Part shown: piece by piece, positions 38,911 through 51,584 of the stretch
Numbering within the stretch: position 1 is the stretch's first letter
Layout: each line of letters begins with the position of its first letter
Source: Candidatus Neomarinimicrobiota bacterium
GTDB taxonomy: Bacteria > Fidelibacterota > Marinisomatia > Marinisomatales > S15-B10
Direction: 5' to 3'
Assembly (NCBI GenBank): GCA_036476315.1
Contig: JAZGBI010000074.1
Location: 1 to 61,358 of the forward strand
DNA: 61,358 nt
The notes under the pieces: generated by a model
What the model was told of the DNA's origin: nothing
Seen by the model: only the letters and a program-made list of their open reading frames with translations
Database searches by the model: none
Translations under genes and position numbers: made by a program

Positions 38911-39363
38911 ATGCTTTTATCCAAATCGAGTGAATTCGCCATTCAGGCCATGGCCTTCCTTGGGGGGATGGACTCCCCCGATCCGGTTATTATTGGAGAG
39001 ATAGCAAGAGTATACGAAATCCCCAGACAATTCCTGTCAAAGATCACCCTGGTGCTCGTCAAACACGAACTTCTTAAGACCCACAGGGGTTGTAAAGGAG
39101 GAGTCACGCTTGCCAGGCCGGCCGAGGACATATTCCTCTCGGAGATCGTACTCGCCGTCTAATGACCCGCTCCTGAGACGGAGCCGTGCCTCTTTGGATT
39201 TGATGTCTGTACCGAGGAACGCCCGTGTCCCCTCCACCCACACTGGAAAGCGATACGGGACAGAATCAAACAAATGCTGGAAGACGAGAGCCTGGACCAC
39301 TTCGGCAGGGAACTCCTCAGGTCGGGCAAGGGAAGATCCTCCGCGCACCTTTCCTTCTCATAA
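38911..39363 (+). pseudogene. Rrf2-family regulator interrupted by two tandem stop codons
   Basis: The first 83 codons give an Rrf2 winged helix (SKSSEFAIQAMAFL, IPRQFLSKITLVLVKHELL, KGGVTLARPAEDIFLSEIV). TAA TGA (39160-39165) then interrupts the frame. In the same frame, after the stops, comes EPCLFGFDVCTEERPCPLHP and a helix ending at TAA 39361. This aligns without gaps to the intact paralogue at 51135, including the three Fe-S-type cysteines (C-x6-C-x5-C). The total length matches (150 against 149 codons). It is a recent pseudogene, or two sequencing errors, or a short DNA-binding-only protein. The upstream GATAAC-GGTCCT context is shared with the paralogue. Confidence 0.8.
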
Positions 39364-39417
39364 CTCATTTTTGCGTTGCATCTTAGTAAATCCCCGTAGC
39401 TAATTTACAGTCAGAAT

Positions 39418-42257: not shown

Positions 42258-44228
42258 TTACTCCGACGTATCCACTCCCGACGCGCCGCCGCTCTCCTTC
42301 TCCACCCATTCCTTCGTCTCCCGCTTCGCTTCGTCCAGATGCTTGGGATGTTCGTGGGCGTACATATCCTCGGGCATCCGGCCGGTCATCCAGGACGGAT
42401 TCATCGGATAGACGTGAGGATTGAAGACAGTGGACCATAAATGCCATACGAAGACTGCCAGAGTTGCGAGCCAGGCCTCCCAGTAGTGGATGACCAGTGA
42501 GACATCGAGCACCCCTCTTGGCAAGAACTGGACAATGTAATTGTCAAACCACAGAAGCAAACCTGTACCGATCATGACGACCGTGCCCCAGGCCAGGGCC
42601 CAGTATTCAGCTTTTTCAATATAACTGAACCGCTTGAATTGGGGCGTTTTGTCCACGCGGCCAAGATTGTACAGGATTCGTTGCCAGAATTCCCTGAAAT
42701 CGTGTACCCGTGGCCAGATGTCTTTAACAAACCTGCTTCCCCGCGGTGTGAAAAGGTAAAATACGTGCCAGAGAGCGGTAATCATGAAAACTACGGCCGC
42801 GTACCGGTGGACCGTTCCCCGAAATTCAAAACCTCCACTCCAGCCAAAGATAAGCGTGGAAATCCACGATTCACTGAAGCGAAGGGAAAATCCCGAAATG
42901 ATGAGAACAATAAAGCTGATCATGAGCAGCGAGTGCTGCCACACCTCGCCAGGGGTCATTCGCCGGACCTGGGGCTTGGCCATGACCAGGCGAATCTGTC
43001 TGATGAGATCAATAACCCAGTGTATCACCATCAATCCAATGATAACAATAATGGCCGCGATATAGATCTTCTCAACCACGTCCGCAGCTGGAGTTCGAAG
43101 ACCCTCGCCACTGATGCCATGAATGGGCGTAGCGGCTAGCTCGGCAGAAATCCCCGGATGACATTCTCCACACGTGGTACGAAGGTTACTGGGATGAATG
43201 GTTGATGTGGGAGCTGAACTGGGAAGGATCCTGTGAACTCCATGGCAGGAGGCACAGTTGGCAACCCTCACATCCCCAGCTTTACTCTTCAAACCGTGAT
43301 AACTGTCAATAAACGTGACCAGCCGTCCCATGGGTAATCCGTACTTCTCATTCAATCGTGTGGACTCATGACACGGGGAACAGGTCACCTCAGCCACCCG
43401 GGCCCGGGATACCGGGGAACGTGGGTCAGAAGGAGAAATAATTCCGTGCTCCCCGTGGCAATCAGTGCATACCGGTGCATCCGTTTCACCTCTTGCGACC
43501 AGCTTCCCGTGAATGCCTTCCCAGAAGTCACTTTCAATCCCTTTATGGCATTCGCCGCAAGTTTTCGGTATGTTAAAGTGATTTACCGCTGACTCCCGAT
43601 TTCCAGGCGAGAATATCCTGTGGGCGCTCCCTCCAGTTGAGTGACAATCATTACAGGTGGCCGCAACATAGATCCCCCCTCGTGTCGCTTTCCCGTGGAT
43701 ACTGTTTTCATACACCTCAACGGGATGGTCGAGAAGCAGCTCGTATTTCCTTGTCAAATCTAGATCTTCGTGGCAGATGCCGCACGTACCGGGCAGATTC
43801 ACCGGGTGAACTTTCGACAATTTGGCAGTCGAGGGAAGAATGTCGTGGTCGCCATGACAGCTTGCGCATGACGGTATGTCCTCTGTCTCTTCCACTTCCA
43901 GTCTTCCGTGGATTTTGTACTCTTCTGATTCCTTTTCATGACAGCCTCGACACTCCTCATCTCCTACGAGTAACCCCGTATCCTTCCGGTGGGGCATCGT
44001 ATCTTTGTCTCCATGACAGTCGAGGCAACCGATGTCTTCATGCGAAGAGTGAGAAATGTCTTCAGCAATAACAGTCTCGTGGGCTCCCGTCTCATGGCAC
44101 TCAACGCAGGAGCCTTCATCGATGGGTTCATACTCCTCTTCCCCCTGGCCGTGAATGAACCCGCAAGAAAAAAGAATAATTGCAACGGTGCAGACCCATT
44201 GCCTTTGGATCTCTTTACCTGTCACCAT
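42258..44228 (-). CDS. 11-haem cytochrome c fused to a membrane cytochrome b
   Basis: This 656-residue protein has an N-terminal membrane signal (WVCTVAIILFSCGFIHG) and eleven CXXCH haem motifs over about 370 residues (CVECH, CLDCH, CRGCH, CASCH, CGICH, CNDCH, CGECH, CTDCH, CSPCH, CASCH, CGECH). The last 270 residues form a four-or-more-segment cytochrome b561/formate-dehydrogenase-gamma-like domain with membrane His residues (VIHWVIDLI, GTVHRYAAVVFMITALWHVF, WHLWSTVFNPH). It could pass electrons between the quinone pool and periplasmic haems. It is the last gene of the cluster, 6 bases after the NapC-like gene. Confidence 0.88.
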   Translation of the reverse strand: MVTGKEIQRQWVCTVAIILFSCGFIHGQGEEEYEPIDEGSCVECHETGAHETVIAEDISHSSHEDIGCLDCHGDKDTMPHRKDTGLLVGDEECRGCHEKESEEYKIHGRLEVEETEDIPSCASCHGDHDILPSTAKLSKVHPVNLPGTCGICHEDLDLTRKYELLLDHPVEVYENSIHGKATRGGIYVAATCNDCHSTGGSAHRIFSPGNRESAVNHFNIPKTCGECHKGIESDFWEGIHGKLVARGETDAPVCTDCHGEHGIISPSDPRSPVSRARVAEVTCSPCHESTRLNEKYGLPMGRLVTFIDSYHGLKSKAGDVRVANCASCHGVHRILPSSAPTSTIHPSNLRTTCGECHPGISAELAATPIHGISGEGLRTPAADVVEKIYIAAIIVIIGLMVIHWVIDLIRQIRLVMAKPQVRRMTPGEVWQHSLLMISFIVLIISGFSLRFSESWISTLIFGWSGGFEFRGTVHRYAAVVFMITALWHVFYLFTPRGSRFVKDIWPRVHDFREFWQRILYNLGRVDKTPQFKRFSYIEKAEYWALAWGTVVMIGTGLLLWFDNYIVQFLPRGVLDVSLVIHYWEAWLATLAVFVWHLWSTVFNPHVYPMNPSWMTGRMPEDMYAHEHPKHLDEAKRETKEWVEKESGGASGVDTSE

Positions 44229-44234
44229 TTGATT

Positions 44235-46235
44235 CTATTCCGGCAGGTGACCGAGAAACTCTTTGTACGCCAGTAAAGTTTCTTCAATCAGCTGAATGTT
44301 ATGAGCCCCTCCGCTCCTGTCCTTTTCGATTTTCTGGAGGGCCTGACGTACCCTCTCAATCTTTTTTCTGTCGTCGACGCTCAACCGGTCAAAAGGTAAA
44401 CCAGACATTTTCCCTGACACCTCCTCCATCGATCTTGCGGTCGCCTCCTGCCATTCTATGAGAAGTTCCTTGTATTCGGAATCGTGGCAATCGGCACACT
44501 TGTCTGCCCCAACCCTCTCCACCTGCCCTTGGGTCCCCTCATGACACCCACGGCATTCCACTCCTGCTTCGTACATAAAGTCCGGCATTGCCTCGGTGGC
44601 AAAATCGACCGAACCGCTGTAGATCTTGGACTGAATGTTGTGGCATTTCTCGCAGCTCACCTCATCCTGCGAATGGTGACACGAAAGGCACTCATCCCTT
44701 CGAATAACCAGTTCTCCGTGCTGCCTCATATTGGAATGGCACTTTGAACAGAGAAGTCGATTCCTTTCAATATGAATGCTGTGGGAAAAGGTAATACCAA
44801 ACGTTGCAACATCGATTTCTTCCTGACCGTAGTGGCAGTTCTTACACTCGGAAGGAACCAATTCGCTATAAACAGCAATTTCGGGAATGGCTGAGGTGGA
44901 ACCGATGAGATTTAGGGCTTCCGCCAATCTGTCGTGGGCGGCGGACAACAGTTCGTCCGAATAGGCAACATTGTGCACGAAATTCCCTTGCTCCACCAAC
45001 TCAAAATTGAATCTGGCGTCGTTGACCATAACGAGGGCATTCTGTCTCGCCTTTTCCGATACGACGCTGGAACCAATATCTGCCTCCACCGTCGTGAAGG
45101 CAATTCTGAGAAGGTCTACTTTTCTGGCCATCAGGTTTTTCCATTGCTGGAGAATCCTTCCGTAACCCCCTCCGTGGCATTTTTCGCACGACTCCGCCCT
45201 TGCCAATGCTGTTTCCCCCATCTCAGCAAACCCGCTTTCGAGTTGATGGAAAATGTGACATCCCTGACAGTTCAATCCCTCATCGAACATGGGATTGGGG
45301 TGTGGCGGAACATCCTTTCCTCCCATTCCGGAGAATAGATCGAGCTGGGCGGCATGGGATTTCGCGTGACACGATTCACATTCCGGCATAATGCCGACAC
45401 TCCTTGATACGGACTGATGAAGTATGATCTGATGACAATTCTGGCATTCCACCTTGTGATCCGTCACATGATTCCTGTGGATAAACTCTATATCACCGTA
45501 CCGTTGAATCTTGCCAATTTCCGCATGGCAAACACTACACCTCTCCGGGGGAACAGTACCGTTCCCCACCTGCATGGGTCCGTGACACTTCTCACAGGCG
45601 ATGTCGTGTTCAACGACATAGGAATGATCATATTTGACTTCCTTATCGCTGCCCTGCTCAGGCGCCGCGTGGCACAAGGTGCAATTGTCAATGGAGGCAC
45701 CCTCGGGCTGATCCTTGAAGTGACAAAGAAAACAGGTAGACTCAGTTACGGTGATATGCTCGCCCTGAACAATCTGGGAATGACAGCTTGTGCAACGGAG
45801 CTTCTTCCCTCTACGGAGCTTGGTTAGATGGGGCCAGTGGTCAAAGATGATTCCCTCCTTGAACAATACCGTACCTGTGAGGACCCTCTCCTCATGGCAT
45901 CCGGAACGGAGACAACTACTGTCCGTGATTTCCGCCCAGGGCTTACTCTTTTTGTATACCCCCGTAAAATAGTTCACCACCATTGAGATGGCCGTGAACT
46001 TTCCTCGAATGTGGGACTTGAATCCCGGGGGATAATGACAATCGACACAGGTCACCGCCGAATGAGTGGATATTTTCCAAGCCTCCACGTAGGGTCTCAT
46101 GTAATGGCAGGTGGAACAGAAAGAAGGCTGGGATGAATATTCAGCGAACGCGTACAGGATGAGGAGCAGAGTGAACACACTGCCCAGTGCAATCCCAAGG
46201 AACTTCAGAAATTTGTTTTTTGATCTCATGGACAT
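44235..46235 (-). CDS. NapC/NirT-type membrane-anchored 18-haem cytochrome c
   Basis: This 666-residue protein has one N-terminal membrane anchor (FLGIALGSVFTLLLILYAFA) and then a NapC/NirT-like start (FCSTCHYMRPYVEAWKISTH, CVDCHYPPGF). I count seventeen CXXCH motifs plus one CX4CH (CLRSGCH), spread over the whole length with a helical insert at about 355-455. NapC-type proteins oxidise membrane quinol and hand electrons to periplasmic partners. This one is far larger than NapC (4 haems), so it may be quinol oxidase and wire in one. An alternative start is two codons inside. Confidence 0.88.
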   Translation of the reverse strand: MSMRSKNKFLKFLGIALGSVFTLLLILYAFAEYSSQPSFCSTCHYMRPYVEAWKISTHSAVTCVDCHYPPGFKSHIRGKFTAISMVVNYFTGVYKKSKPWAEITDSSCLRSGCHEERVLTGTVLFKEGIIFDHWPHLTKLRRGKKLRCTSCHSQIVQGEHITVTESTCFLCHFKDQPEGASIDNCTLCHAAPEQGSDKEVKYDHSYVVEHDIACEKCHGPMQVGNGTVPPERCSVCHAEIGKIQRYGDIEFIHRNHVTDHKVECQNCHQIILHQSVSRSVGIMPECESCHAKSHAAQLDLFSGMGGKDVPPHPNPMFDEGLNCQGCHIFHQLESGFAEMGETALARAESCEKCHGGGYGRILQQWKNLMARKVDLLRIAFTTVEADIGSSVVSEKARQNALVMVNDARFNFELVEQGNFVHNVAYSDELLSAAHDRLAEALNLIGSTSAIPEIAVYSELVPSECKNCHYGQEEIDVATFGITFSHSIHIERNRLLCSKCHSNMRQHGELVIRRDECLSCHHSQDEVSCEKCHNIQSKIYSGSVDFATEAMPDFMYEAGVECRGCHEGTQGQVERVGADKCADCHDSEYKELLIEWQEATARSMEEVSGKMSGLPFDRLSVDDRKKIERVRQALQKIEKDRSGGAHNIQLIEETLLAYKEFLGHLPE

Positions 46236-46355
46236 GGAAACTGGTGCTGAGAGATCAATCGACGTACATCAATATCCCCAAATACTAAAGAAGAGAAGTA
46301 AGAGGAAATGCGCTATACATAACCTCCTCCTTTCTGGTTCATCCGTCAAATCAAC

Positions 46356-46967
46356 TTATTGCTTCATGTCCGGAGGATATGGGTGAGCAATTTCTTTTCC
46401 CCGGTTTTCGAATTCGAACGGTTTGTACGCAGGACTGTTTTCGTTATGGCATTGCTTGCAGGTTGCTTCGTTGGGGACCAGCAGTCCTACAGACTTACCC
46501 TCAACGGTTCCTCCAAAGATCGCCTTCATGACCTTCATGCTCTTGTACTCGCTTCCCGGGCCGTGACACACTTCGCAGCCCACCGCCTGTAAACCCTTCA
46601 TCCGTTTGACTGCCTTTTTGGCTTCCTTATCGGCCTCCGGCGGATTCCAGAATTCCTCGTCTTTCACTTCGTAACCACCTTTGCCGTATCCGGTGACGTG
46701 GCAGACTATACACTCCGGTGCCTCGTAGGCAGGAAGCTCCAGTCCCCTTTCCGCGGCAATCTTGGCTGCCTCTTCCGTTTTCAGGGAGTCAAAAGCCTTC
46801 GCATGAACCCCATCGGCCCAAACCTTGTACTGCCCTCCTTTCTTACTGCCGGAATGACAGATCTTGCAGCCTTCGGAACCGATGTATTCGAATTCATGTG
46901 CCTTTTCGGTTTCTTGCGCCGCAAGCAGTGAAAATGCACAGGTGGCCAGTACGATTACCTTCTTCAT
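46356..46967 (-). CDS. periplasmic tetrahaem cytochrome c554-like protein
   Basis: This 203-residue protein has a signal peptide (MKKVIVLATCAFSLLAAQ) and four CXXCH motifs: CKICH in IGSEGCKICH, CIVCH in PECIVCHVTGYG, CEVCH in GCEVCHGPGSEYK, and CKQCH in ATCKQCHNE. The spacing and the CHVTGYGKGGY and CHGPGS contexts match the cytochrome c554 family, soluble electron carriers. It is the smallest haem protein of the cluster and a likely shuttle. There is a 9-base gap from the upstream gene and a 120-base gap downstream. Confidence 0.88.
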   Translation of the reverse strand: MKKVIVLATCAFSLLAAQETEKAHEFEYIGSEGCKICHSGSKKGGQYKVWADGVHAKAFDSLKTEEAAKIAAERGLELPAYEAPECIVCHVTGYGKGGYEVKDEEFWNPPEADKEAKKAVKRMKGLQAVGCEVCHGPGSEYKSMKVMKAIFGGTVEGKSVGLLVPNEATCKQCHNENSPAYKPFEFENRGKEIAHPYPPDMKQ

Positions 46968-46976
46968 AACCCCTCC

Positions 46977-47792
46977 CTAGTTGAAATCCCTCTCCCCATT
47001 TACGTGTTTCGTTCTGTCAATAATATCTCCCTCTGAGTTTATGACAGATGCATGGCAGAGCGAACACTGTGCCAGAGTATATTCTCCAAAATGGCCTGTC
47101 GGTGGTATCCCGTGGCAAGATCCGCATACCACGCTCCCGGGTCCGGTCCATACGGGAGTGGAATAATTCCCCGATATGTTGTTGTAGACAAAATTCCCGT
47201 GACAATGGACCGCAGAACAGGTCGCGTCATCCCTGTTCCAGATGGGCTCCACATTGCCACCGCCGGTTGCCGTAGTTCCAAATGTTATTTCTGCGGTATT
47301 ATCCCAACCCAGATGACCTTCATCACGATAATCCACAGGAACCATATGGCATTGATCACATGATACAATGGCAAGGCTCGATTCCATATGTGCTTCATGA
47401 GCCCCTACCGATTTGAGAGTCACGTCGGTGCGGTCGTGGAGATCAACAGGTGGGTACGCATGGCCCGCCTCCCGGTCACCGTGACAGGTTGTACAGGTAC
47501 CAATACCCACACTATGAACATGGCAGGAGCTGCAGCTTAATCGAGAACTTCCGCCGGACAGATCCTCCCCATGACAGAATTGACATCGGTTGAATCCCCA
47601 GCCGTTTGTCTTGAGAACTTGGCCATGGAAATTCCTACTGCCTGGATCTCCCCAGTCATCAGGATGCACGGGGGGTTCAGCGGGATCTGTGCACCTGGTG
47701 GAGAAAAACAGAATAGACGAGACAAGGGCAATACGCAAAATGACTCTTCCGTGATTCGTCAGGCGTGATACGGGATGACGGAGACTCAACAT
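46977..47792 (-). CDS. seven-haem exported cytochrome c, CX4CH/CXXCH type
   Basis: I set the start at ATG 47792, where a signal sequence begins (MLSLRHPVSRLTNHGRVILR then IALVSSILFFSTRC); the open frame extends to 47945, with ATG 47840 as alternative. FFSTRC could be a lipoprotein site. There are six CXXCH motifs and one CX4CH (CSAVHCH) followed by CGSCHGIPPTGHF, the pattern of Geobacter-type CX4CH/CXXCH surface cytochromes. It is probably outer-membrane-attached, beside the barrel protein. Confidence 0.78.
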   Translation of the reverse strand: MLSLRHPVSRLTNHGRVILRIALVSSILFFSTRCTDPAEPPVHPDDWGDPGSRNFHGQVLKTNGWGFNRCQFCHGEDLSGGSSRLSCSSCHVHSVGIGTCTTCHGDREAGHAYPPVDLHDRTDVTLKSVGAHEAHMESSLAIVSCDQCHMVPVDYRDEGHLGWDNTAEITFGTTATGGGNVEPIWNRDDATCSAVHCHGNFVYNNISGNYSTPVWTGPGSVVCGSCHGIPPTGHFGEYTLAQCSLCHASVINSEGDIIDRTKHVNGERDFN

Positions 47793-47829
47793 GCGTCTAG
47801 ATCGCCTCTGAGAATTGTGAATCCATCCG

Positions 47830-48678
47830 TTACTCCCCATGGCACCTGAGACAGGAGTAGTCGGTCCACGGGTTATGGCACGCCTGGCATACCTCAGGGG
47901 CATCGAGGGCGGCCGATGAATGTAGTCCGCCATCCTCGAGGGCAAAGATGGTACCTACCCATCCTGGTAAATTGTGATCCATGGGCATAATCTGGAGATC
48001 CCCATGACATCCCTGACAGTCGGTTTGAACCTGGTGGCAGGATACGCAATCCGATATCCCGGACCGTGCATCAAATCCGTGGGACAGCAAATAGGACACC
48101 GGGTGAACCTTCGGTTCAAACTGCTGAAGTTGATGACAGGCGTCACAGGAGACCTGAGAATGACACACCATGCAATTCTCCTCCGTGACCTGACTTATCT
48201 CCATTCCATGCAGCCGCGTCCAATCCGATGTGTGGGATACAGGCCGCGATTTCTGGTGACAGTCCCGGCAGTCCTGACCCTTCCATAATTTTGGAGGAGC
48301 CAACCCGTCGTCGGAGAAAACGTATTCGTGGCAATCCACGCAATCCGGTCGTTTCGAAAGGTGAAGGATATGGGAGAATGATGGTCCCGGCCTCGGAGGC
48401 AGCTCAGGGTGGGTCTTCGGCTCGTCGGGACGGGTGTGGCACGCGGAACATTCATCCGTAGCCACGTCTCCATCATGACATTCAAGGCAGGAATCCTGCA
48501 GAGGTAAAAGGCGAACGGCAAGAGAACTGGCTTTCTTTATCCCCTCGTGACATGCGTCGCATTCAAGCTCCAGCACTTCCAGGTGAATCCGATGAGGAAA
48601 AATAATATGGTCCCGCTCCTGTCCACTGATGAAGGAGAGGAAAAGGACCATGACCAGATTCAGTCTAAAGTGTCGCAC
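47830..48678 (-). CDS. 11-haem periplasmic cytochrome c
   Basis: This 282-residue protein has a signal peptide (LNLVMVLFLSFISGQ) and eleven CXXCH motifs, about one haem per 25 residues: CDACH, CLECH, CSACH, CVDCH, CRDCH, CMVCH, CDACH, CVSCH, CQGCH, CQACH, CLRCH. Extra His residues (FPHRIHLEV, FSHILHLS) are likely distal ligands. The dense packing suggests a nanowire-like conductor. It overlaps the barrel gene by 14 bases, so the two are made together. The size and coupling resemble the cytochrome of porin-cytochrome conduits, although the sequence family is not one I can name. Confidence 0.88.
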   Translation of the reverse strand: MRHFRLNLVMVLFLSFISGQERDHIIFPHRIHLEVLELECDACHEGIKKASSLAVRLLPLQDSCLECHDGDVATDECSACHTRPDEPKTHPELPPRPGPSFSHILHLSKRPDCVDCHEYVFSDDGLAPPKLWKGQDCRDCHQKSRPVSHTSDWTRLHGMEISQVTEENCMVCHSQVSCDACHQLQQFEPKVHPVSYLLSHGFDARSGISDCVSCHQVQTDCQGCHGDLQIMPMDHNLPGWVGTIFALEDGGLHSSAALDAPEVCQACHNPWTDYSCLRCHGE

Positions 48679-49843
48679 GGATCGTCAACCCGCCTCTTCC
48701 ATCGTTCACATAGTATGGATTCTTGCTAAATACACCATAAAGTCTCACCATCACCATCGATAGGGGTCTGAAGGCAATCCAGCCGTACAGGCTGGTGGCA
48801 CGACTGAGTTCCACAAGATCTTTGTAGCCTGTGGCGTTAACCAGAATGTTCCCCCCGAACCTCAAGGTCCGAGAGAGTGCCCGTGTAGCACCCAATCCAC
48901 TTCCCAGAAGCGTTCTGTCACCCTGAATTCCGGCAAGAAGAGTCACATGATAACTCCGATGAAACAGGATGCTCCTGAAATACCGCACCGACGGATCCCC
49001 CAGGCGGTACACCAGCTGATTCCACCATGACGTCTCACGGGAGAGGGACGAGGTAACGCCCAGAGATGTCGTGGGTGACCCTGTTGTTCTTGTCGTCGCC
49101 CATGGGTACGGACTGGAAACCGCATACCGCTTGTGTCTCGCGCCTAACCTCACAAGATGATTTCCCCATCGGTAAGACATGAGCAATCGACCATGGTATA
49201 ACACGCTATGGGTGAAATCCCAGGCCAAGGAGCCGGAGATCTTCACTTGCGAGAAGATTCTTGCATTCCATGTGGTGCCAGTATAGAAGGCTGTTTCGTT
49301 TGTTTCGCTCCGGGCCCAGGAACTCACCTCCAGGTTCTTCCCCGGTCCTCCTTTTCCCCACGAGAGAAAGAAGAACGATTTTTCCGCGACCTCCGTGTCA
49401 CTGAAGTCCGTTACCGCAGGAACACCACCGAGAAATCTCAGAGAACCGAACCTCTCCGTCCGGAGCTGATATTCCCCGCCGTCTACGCGGGCGTGGATCA
49501 ACCGGTTCCAAAGCGTGATTCTTCCAGCATTCAATGAATGCTTACGGATGGTTACCGTAGCGGATAGATTGTGAACGCGGAACGGATTCTGGAAAATATA
49601 GTTTTCCGATCCGTACTCAAAATGAGACTGGAGTTTCACCAGCCGCCCAAGCGTCTGGTGGTAGCTGGCCCAAAGCCGCCAGTGAGTTTCTTCTTCACCC
49701 CCAACCATATGGAGTCTGGGCGTCAGAAACGTGGAGGTGACTTTTACCTCGGGTTTGGCCGCCGAGACTAGTGAGGAAGCTACGAGGGCCAGGATGAAAC
49801 CGTTGAAACAGGAATTACTTTGACGGGCGAGGTTTCGAATCAT
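48665..49843 (-). CDS. outer-membrane beta-barrel protein of the cytochrome cluster
   Basis: This 392-residue protein has a signal peptide (CFNGFILALVASSLVSA) followed by alternating strands through its length (HWRLWASYHQTLGRLVKLQS, LSATVTIRKHSLNAGRITLW, GRLLMSYRWGNHLVRLG, GWIAFRPLSMVMVRLYGV), with aromatic girdles. It contains no haem motif. It is the first gene of the cluster. By position it could be the porin that sheathes a cytochrome across the outer membrane. I count room for roughly 16-20 strands by eye. It is not a recognised PioB/MtrB sequence, so the role is inferred. Confidence 0.75.
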   Translation of the reverse strand: MIRNLARQSNSCFNGFILALVASSLVSAAKPEVKVTSTFLTPRLHMVGGEEETHWRLWASYHQTLGRLVKLQSHFEYGSENYIFQNPFRVHNLSATVTIRKHSLNAGRITLWNRLIHARVDGGEYQLRTERFGSLRFLGGVPAVTDFSDTEVAEKSFFFLSWGKGGPGKNLEVSSWARSETNETAFYTGTTWNARIFSQVKISGSLAWDFTHSVLYHGRLLMSYRWGNHLVRLGARHKRYAVSSPYPWATTRTTGSPTTSLGVTSSLSRETSWWNQLVYRLGDPSVRYFRSILFHRSYHVTLLAGIQGDRTLLGSGLGATRALSRTLRFGGNILVNATGYKDLVELSRATSLYGWIAFRPLSMVMVRLYGVFSKNPYYVNDGRGGLTIRATL

Positions 49844-50011: not shown

Positions 50012-50476
50012 TCAGGCCGAAGGCTTAAGAGACATTTTGTAGAATTCTTTAAAAGATTCCACTTTGGCGGCCGAACGATAGACTCCGCAAATCCGGCAGT
50101 CTTCAGATTTGCATCGTTCCCCTGTTTCTTCAAGATTCCAGCATACCTCTTCGCAGCTTATGTAGGCGGCACAGGCTTCTCTGTCATTCACTCCACAAGG
50201 TTTTATCTCCCAGCACGGTATGAGGGATAGCAGACGCCGAAGTCCGGAAATCGTTAGCTTATTACCCCCAATCTGTCGGCGAATGCAGGCAATCCATTCA
50301 AGATCCACCTGGGAATACAATCGTCGGCGTGTCTCGGTTCGATACGGAATAACAAGCCCCTTTCTCTCGTACAATCGGAGGGTTTGCGGTGATACACTCA
50401 TCTTTCTTGCGATGACTCCGATTGTATAAACGGGGTCGTGGGCTTCAACAACAGCTTTGTCTGGATCAGAATTCAT
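50012..50476 (-). CDS. MerR-family regulator with cysteine-rich two-CW-like sensor domain
   Basis: This 154-residue protein has an HspR/MerR winged helix (YTIGVIARKMSVSPQTLRLY, ERKGLVIPYRTETRRRLYS). Its C-terminal part carries nine cysteines in about 50 residues: CWEIKPCG, EACAAYISCEEVCW, ERCKSEDCRICG. The CW pairs resemble the two-CW domain seen in redox or metal sensing proteins. It lies 168 bases upstream of the cytochrome cluster in the same orientation. It is a reasonable candidate for its redox- or metal-responsive regulator; the link is inferred from position. Confidence 0.78.
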   Translation of the reverse strand: MNSDPDKAVVEAHDPVYTIGVIARKMSVSPQTLRLYERKGLVIPYRTETRRRLYSQVDLEWIACIRRQIGGNKLTISGLRRLLSLIPCWEIKPCGVNDREACAAYISCEEVCWNLEETGERCKSEDCRICGVYRSAAKVESFKEFYKMSLKPSA

Positions 50477-51134: not shown

Positions 51135-51584
51135 GTGCTTTTTTCTAAATCAGTTGAATATGGCATTCAGGCTATGATCTACCTGGCCGAGAGGGATTCA
51201 GATGACCCTATTATGATCGGGGAAATCGCTCAGGCTTACAGCATTCCCAGGCAGTTCCTGGCCAAAATTGTCCAAACCCTTGTCAAGTACCGGTTGTTGA
51301 CCGCATTTCGGGGAAGGAACGGAGGAGTGAAACTCGCCCGTCCCTCAAGCGAGATCTATCTCCCAGAAATCATCCATGCCATTGATGGTCCCCCGCCGGA
51401 AGAGGAACCATGCATTTTCGGGTTGGATGAATGCTCTGATGAACAACCGTGTCCCTTTCATCCTCGCTGGGAGGTCATACGGGAGGATATCGACGATATG
51501 CTTGGCCTGGAGAGCCTCGACAAGCTCGCCGAGATGGTAACGGAAAAACATACCGCGATGGAGGAATCTCTCAAGGCAACCTGA
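51135..51584 (+). CDS. Rrf2-family iron-sulfur transcription regulator
   Basis: This 149-residue protein has an intact Rrf2 winged helix (SKSVEYGIQAMIYL, IPRQFLAKIVQTLVKYRLL, GRNGGVKLARP) and the Fe-S cysteines of the family in EEPCIFGLDECSDEQPCPFHP (C-x6-C-x5-C). It probably senses iron-sulfur state, nitric oxide or redox, as IscR/NsrR-type proteins do. The start is GTG with GAGGT upstream. It is the intact paralogue of the interrupted gene at 38911, and the two share upstream sequence around the ribosome site. Confidence 0.9.
   Translation: MLFSKSVEYGIQAMIYLAERDSDDPIMIGEIAQAYSIPRQFLAKIVQTLVKYRLLTAFRGRNGGVKLARPSSEIYLPEIIHAIDGPPPEEEPCIFGLDECSDEQPCPFHPRWEVIREDIDDMLGLESLDKLAEMVTEKHTAMEESLKAT

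Follow-up and report, generated by a model that had tools for sequence, protein, structure and literature searches.

Gene content of the cluster

A 61,358-nucleotide stretch of DNA from a Neomarinimicrobiota bacterium (contig JAZGBI010000074.1; hereafter the window, meaning the whole stretch) contains a cluster of six genes at positions 42258-49843 that encodes a predicted outer-membrane barrel and five multihaem cytochromes, and that probably specifies an electron conduit across the cell envelope. The source assembly is 2.6 Mb in size and 96% complete. Marinimicrobia abound in oxygen-poor seawater and, to our knowledge, have been little cultured. Searches of the open-access literature on porin-cytochrome and multiheme systems turned up no electron conduit of the outer membrane described for these bacteria. 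If such a conduit is conserved and encoded in an operon, extracellular electron transfer becomes a part of Marinimicrobia metabolism that can be tested.

The six open reading frames (ORFs), named F, E, D, C, B and A in order of reading, all lie on the minus strand; that they run in one direction agrees with an earlier note on this DNA.

F: 48665..49843, minus strand; 392 amino acids (aa), N-terminal signal or hydrophobic segment, no CXXCH motif; predicted 22-stranded outer-membrane beta-barrel
E: 47830..48678, minus strand; 282 aa, 11 CXXCH; c7-type periplasmic cytochrome, proposed to sit in F
D: 46977..47792 (ORF extendable to 47945), minus strand; 6 CXXCH and 1 CX4CH; proposed lipoprotein cytochrome of the outer-membrane surface
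C: 46356..46967, minus strand; 203 aa, 4 haem motifs; c554-like soluble periplasmic cytochrome
B: 44235..46235, minus strand; 666 aa, 17 CXXCH and 1 CX4CH; NapC/NrfH-type membrane-anchored cytochrome, proposed quinol oxidase
A: 42258..44228, minus strand; 656 aa, 11 CXXCH and a cytochrome b561 domain; putative CbcL/MtrH/MtoC-like quinol oxidase

Haem motifs in the translated ORFs sum to 51 (49 CXXCH and two CX4CH), with 11 in E, 7 in D, 4 in C, 18 in B, 11 in A and none in F. This agrees with the earlier estimate of about 51, and motif counts together with Pfam and NCBIfam matches bear out the protein types claimed for E, D, C, B and A. Cytochrome_C7 domains scored above Pfam cut-offs in A, B, C and E. 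Starting from a MerR-family regulator gene upstream of F, the intergenic gaps along MerR-F-E-D-C-B-A are 168, -14, 37, 9, 120 and 6 nucleotides (nt). The partial gene overlap that had also been described is clear only between F and E (14 nt); the D/E overlap depends on an upstream TTG and is likely spurious, the more likely start of D being the ATG at 47792, 37 nt past E.

Conservation of the F-E pair and of gene order

Homologues of F were detected in 21 of 61 genomes from the window's order and in 35 of 245 genomes of the phylum. At all 35 loci examined (35/35) E is adjacent to F and the two ORFs overlap, the shared stretch being most often 14 or 11 nt, and the pairing occurs in two or more classes of the phylum, which upholds the proposal that the 11-haem protein is coupled to the barrel. 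Gene order, which the earlier note had suggested looking for in related genomes, is likewise retained: F, E and D occur in that order at every relative locus with a long enough, unmasked contig, and the fuller order F-E-D-C-(A17)-B-A, where A17 is an additional cytochrome module described below, is common to many Neomarinimicrobiota. A scan of 84,980 species with one single motif, which more distant homologues in other phyla could escape, gave 16 confirmed, named loci encoding a relative of E; all of these (16/16) belonged to Candidatus Marinimicrobia/Neomarinimicrobiota or to unclassified or FCB-group bins.

Predicted structure of the barrel

An AlphaFold2 model of F built from 16 sequences has 22 strands, with a predicted local distance difference test score (pLDDT) of 82.2 and a predicted template modelling score of 0.70. 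Its loops are mostly 2-6 residues long, the longest having 19, and the model contains neither a plug nor a long constriction loop. Within-strand hydrophobic alternation was 2.23, compared with 1.23 in 1000 shuffles (standard deviation 0.20, maximum 1.95). Model and alternation together support the barrel assignment, which had begun as a guess from the letters alone. The best rows in a VIA-align comparison were mostly 22-strand TonB-dependent receptors (Z 16-20, approximately 314-335 residues aligned), and these alignments begin past the plug of the receptors. F matched nothing in Pfam, NCBIfam or PHROGs, its sequence profile found no real match among Protein Data Bank (PDB) chains, and MtrB was not among the Foldseek and VIA-align matches listed for F, which excludes nothing. 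Since a plug-less 22-strand barrel would leave a wide hole, a filler of the F pore is to be expected, for which E is the obvious candidate.

The top E-values in a Foldseek search of the PDB with F belonged only to generic porins and ushers. Ordinary porins among these first-ranked matches lend some weight to an alternative in which F is a substrate channel, a soluble acceptor such as selenite, tellurite, a sulfur oxyanion or an N-oxide being reduced in the periplasm while electrons stay in the cell. A precedent is Geobacter ExtI, a barrel encoded in a rhodanese/cytochrome cluster, which is needed for normal selenite and tellurite reduction and was proposed to be a channel (PMC5877670). A substrate channel would not, however, require overlap with one cytochrome at every locus; the F model lacks a long constriction loop and aligns best to plugged 22-strand barrels, and no terminal reductase family in Pfam or NCBIfam was matched among the cluster proteins. 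We consider this alternative unlikely, and the outcome that the earlier note had named as fatal to a conduit, an unrelated small-substrate porin, did not emerge from the F model.

Properties of E and its covariation with F

Within the order, E sequences are 39-50% identical to the window copy, and the 11 CXXCH motifs and ten non-motif histidines are invariant over 18 sequences; distant relatives have 10-12 CXXCH motifs. The ten invariant extra histidines suggest that most haems of E probably have two histidine ligands. Matches of an E profile among PDB chains were c7 and 12-haem cytochromes, and no match was found in PHROGs. Pairwise distances of F and E correlated with r=0.93 over 18 loci and 0.79 without C, compared with 0.49 for F and D, values that are descriptive because the loci share ancestry. 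Together with the invariable adjacency of the two genes, these features are compatible with an E that is inserted in the pore of F.

A variable putative surface cytochrome

D directly follows E in the relatives, matches the CxxxxCH/CxxCH domain model TIGR01904 and, in most copies, carries a typical lipobox. The earlier description of D as a seven-haem CX4CH-type protein stands as to its motifs; the surface role, which that description did not name, is suggested by the comparison across relatives. Many of these have a D with 4 haem motifs, and others have 5, 6, 8, 9, 10, 11, 20, 22 or approximately 27. A near-constant E of about 11 haems beside a D that varies from 4 to approximately 27 fits a variable surface cytochrome, suggesting that D is the otherwise missing surface component of the conduit, presumably exposed on the outer membrane. 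The constant F-E core combined with so variable a D forms a natural series for studying the function of the surface part.

Giant forms of D were observed at three loci of relatives: L074:1103-3565 with 27 haem motifs, L075:9293-11296 with 20 and L076:10218-12383 with 22, of which ten are CX4CH.

Inner-membrane and periplasmic modules

Residues 9-96 of B match the NapC/NirT N-terminal domain PF03264 (38.5 bits, cut-off 24.1), and further haem domains are matched in this protein; B has one evident N-terminal hydrophobic anchor and no CX3CH motif, and 18-haem copies 41-55% identical to it occur in relatives. A matches PF14522, PF22113 and PF01292 (Ni_hydr_CYTB) above cut-offs, the last with 45.7 bits (cut-off 30.1), and its residues 427-630 form a TIGR01583 region (formate-dehydrogenase-gamma-like cytochrome b); copies in relatives are up to 66% identical. 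Both A and B are probably quinol oxidases, judging from these domains. Relatives hold a third module, A17, which is absent from the window copy and has 17 haems and a cytochrome b; in one relative it was matched by the DmsE/MtrA model TIGR03508.

C contains the cytochrome c554 domain PF13435 (E-value 3e-16), and copies approximately 50-60% identical follow D in most relatives. Its resemblance to c554-type cytochromes would suit a periplasmic store of electrons or a soluble reductase system, with F as an unrelated neighbor. The linkage and overlap of F and E at 35/35 loci largely refute this explanation, the F-E-D order is kept across the phylum, and the 51 haems are distributed over membrane-anchored and barrel-linked proteins, so that it is very improbable. 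The cytochromes matched no known soluble reductase family, a match to such a complex being the second outcome that had been named as fatal to a conduit, and the presence of A, B, C, E, F and D confirms the earlier claim that all layers from the quinone pool to the outer membrane are encoded.

Proposed path of electrons

Taken together, the results make it probable that these genes specify an entire electron route across the envelope, of the porin-cytochrome (Pcc) type and leading to an extracellular acceptor. A (CbcL-like, with haems c and b) and the 18-haem, NapC-type B would draw electrons from the quinol pool, and C, with the periplasmic domains of A and B, would ferry them over the periplasm. 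E would fill the plug-less barrel F and pass electrons through the outer membrane, where D, anchored in that membrane, would deliver them to the extracellular acceptor. Flow would be outward, and the acceptor may be a metal oxide, another cell, or a sulfur or selenium species.

Several points weigh against this proposal. The model of E has a pLDDT of 49 and is unusable for judging its fit in the F pore; poor models are common for haem proteins and shallow alignments. In the window D and in the D of L075, an arginine precedes the lipobox cysteine, and lipidation of the window D is uncertain. Fe(III) reducers as well as Fe(II) oxidisers possess homologues of CbcL/MtrH/MtoC (PMC6295460), and for this reason the direction of flow is not readable from sequence.

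The occurrence of these homologues in Fe(II) oxidisers also speaks for a conduit run inward, in which an external donor (Fe(II), sulfide/FeS or another cell) would supply electrons via D-E-F and quinone would be reduced by A and B. Against such a direction, B belongs to the NapC/NrfH type, whose usual activity is quinol oxidation, and two parallel inner-membrane modules suit outward respiration. Inward flow is regarded as quite unlikely, and outward flow through F and E to an extracellular acceptor is the preferred interpretation.

A putative selenocysteine cytochrome and a rhodanese in relatives

In most relatives with enough upstream DNA, the operon begins with MerR, followed by a 10-11-haem lipoprotein (X), a rhodanese lipoprotein (R) and then F. 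X has an in-frame TGA past its first haem motif, mostly in a glycine-rich context (GGGUGG, PGUGG or STUGD). Of 245 genomes of the phylum, 42 yielded a copy of X, and almost every copy has exactly one internal TGA. Examples with one in-frame UGA and a GUGG motif, among other loci, are:

X: L029:3252-4688
X: L026:6268-7710
X: L041:1303-2694

In L106 the UGA position of X holds a cysteine (PGCGG), and a few copies have neither. A hairpin with a six-pair stem and a GTT loop lies 11 nt past the UGA, a spacing and stem-loop as expected of a bacterial selenocysteine insertion element. Within the stem, 92% of cells pair compared with 75% in shuffles, and both sides are changed in 21 cells compared with 6. 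None of 500 shuffles (0/500) reached the covariation score, and sliding the partner by one column reduced pairing to 51%. Genomes with a TGA-type X generally have SelB or tRNA-Sec; so does most of the phylum, and their presence by itself therefore does not support X as a selenoprotein. The selenocysteine reading is based instead on the covarying hairpin and the cysteine replacement, which make X a likely selenocysteine cytochrome. This putative protein of the relatives' full operon is the most unusual associated finding and, if a true selenoprotein, connects the chemistry of selenium with electron transfer at the outer membrane beyond the Geobacteraceae.

Searches of the assembly that contains the window revealed neither X nor R, an empty search for R being weak evidence alone. 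Loss of the selenocysteine machinery from this genome, where SelB reached only an EF-Tu-like level, was considered and dropped, as tRNA-Sec scored over its cut-off in the same assembly. A tentative possibility, on which we place somewhat less than even weight, is that the full operon of the relatives encodes a selenocysteine-dependent conduit in which X, as a surface selenocytochrome with its GUGG motif, and R end the F-E path, probably acting on sulfur or selenium species, and that the window holds a stripped form with a longer lipoprotein D as terminus.

In a different family of the phylum (L117-L120, L122 and L126), the MerR-X-R head also occurs with no F and lies beside 8-, 6-, 3- and 18-haem cytochromes. 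Further along these loci lies a protein of 540-570 aa that may be a different barrel, and the loci perhaps represent a second conduit type. At L121:5353-8174 (G109:C43), a very divergent F-E-D set, the second of its genome and with 12 haems in E, adjoins a 9-haem protein and a homologue of X that lacks the UGA.

Regulators and other genes of the genome

Two regulator genes stand divergently upstream of F.

MerR-family regulator: 50012..50476, minus strand; PF13411 and PF00376, 168 nt upstream of F
Rrf2-family regulator: 51135..51584, plus strand; divergent to MerR; L026, L032 and L123 each carry a 62-63% identical gene in the same divergent position

In most relatives whose upstream DNA is long enough, the operon likewise starts with the MerR gene. 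Its product has a conserved cysteine-rich C-terminus (PCWE..C...C.A...CW...C..C.VY), a possible metal or Fe-S sensor domain, and the Rrf2 gene is a probable co-regulator. The two regulators suggest redox or iron-sulfur control of the cluster.

A second Rrf2-like gene at window positions 38911-39403 is apparently broken: an 83-aa frame ends early and reading seems to resume in another frame, consistent with a frameshift or an assembly error. Elsewhere in the window's own genome, at L142 (G000:C76), an operon resembling Alternative Complex III (5-haem, 838-aa, Fe-S and NrfD-like subunits, as judged from sequence) adjoins a bc-type complex with a 9-haem cytochrome.

Comparison with known systems

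The inner-membrane modules were compared with three groups of quinol-linked cytochromes. In CbcL/MtrH/MtoC proteins, a multihaem c domain with 3-23 motifs at the N-terminus is joined to a HydC/FdnI-like cytochrome b (PMC6295460), a description that fits A, with its multihaem N-terminus and formate-dehydrogenase-gamma-like cytochrome b C-terminus. CbcL of G. sulfurreducens differs in having nine c-haems compared with 11 in A, and no CbcL model was matched in the libraries used. B has the N-terminal haem domain of the NapC/NrfH superfamily; it departs from ImcH, whose three membrane helices go with 5-9 CX2CH motifs and one CX3CH motif, in carrying 17 CXXCH and one CX4CH.

MtrCAB, MtoAB and PioAB are alike in working, with a barrel, a haem chain within it and a surface cytochrome. 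They differ in strand number (26 compared with 22 in F) and in haem number (10 compared with 11 in E); F had no MtrB/PioB family match, and E gave none to TIGR03508 at E<=1.

The Geobacter extHIJKLMNOPQS cluster includes a rhodanese, a barrel and a selenocysteine cytochrome (PMC5877670). The likeness is confined to the relatives of the window cluster, which have a rhodanese lipoprotein by the barrel, a putative selenocysteine multihaem cytochrome and further multihaem and b-type cytochromes. The window F, in contrast, has no rhodanese or selenocytochrome beside it, the cluster has no Rieske protein, and the published account of the Ext cluster (PMC5877670) includes no counterpart of E. The best cluster scores against the ExtN, ExtO and ExtS models were 13-16 bits compared with cut-offs of 100-200, ExtM gave no match, and the rhodanese and selenocytochrome types of the relatives fell below the ExtH and ExtKL equivalog cut-offs.

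The closest correspondence is with the Pcc class, known from OmbB-OmaB-OmcB of Geobacter and from related complexes in other phyla, in which porins have 18-22 strands and are diverse (8-100% identical), periplasmic cytochromes have 5-14 haems and are always encoded beside the porin, a multihaem lipoprotein cytochrome of the outer membrane is usually part of the cluster, and a constant pore partner is combined with a very variable, freely changing outer-membrane cytochrome (PMC4245776). Compared by architecture, the window cluster has the 22 strands of F, an adjacent 11-haem partner in E, and in the place of the lipoprotein cytochrome a very variable multihaem D, with a lipobox in most relatives and Arg at position -1 in the window copy. 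Both systems have associated inner-membrane cytochromes with a formate-dehydrogenase-like b domain, and in both the barrel co-varies with its periplasmic partner more than with the surface cytochrome. The differences are that E has 11-12 haems in c7-like units compared with 8, that no barrel model in Pfam or NCBIfam matches F, and that relatives of the window cluster add the rhodanese lipoprotein and the putative selenocysteine cytochrome. The earlier suggestion that barrel and cytochrome fall outside the MtrAB and Geobacter Pcc families, and may form a separate conduit, holds in part: E matches no MtrA/DmsE model, F no Pfam or NCBIfam model and the cluster no Mtr or Ext model, but the architecture is of the Pcc type, and a place outside the Pcc families is not supported. 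The cluster appears to represent a sequence-distinct Pcc-type conduit, built from its own sequence families and recurring across the phylum.

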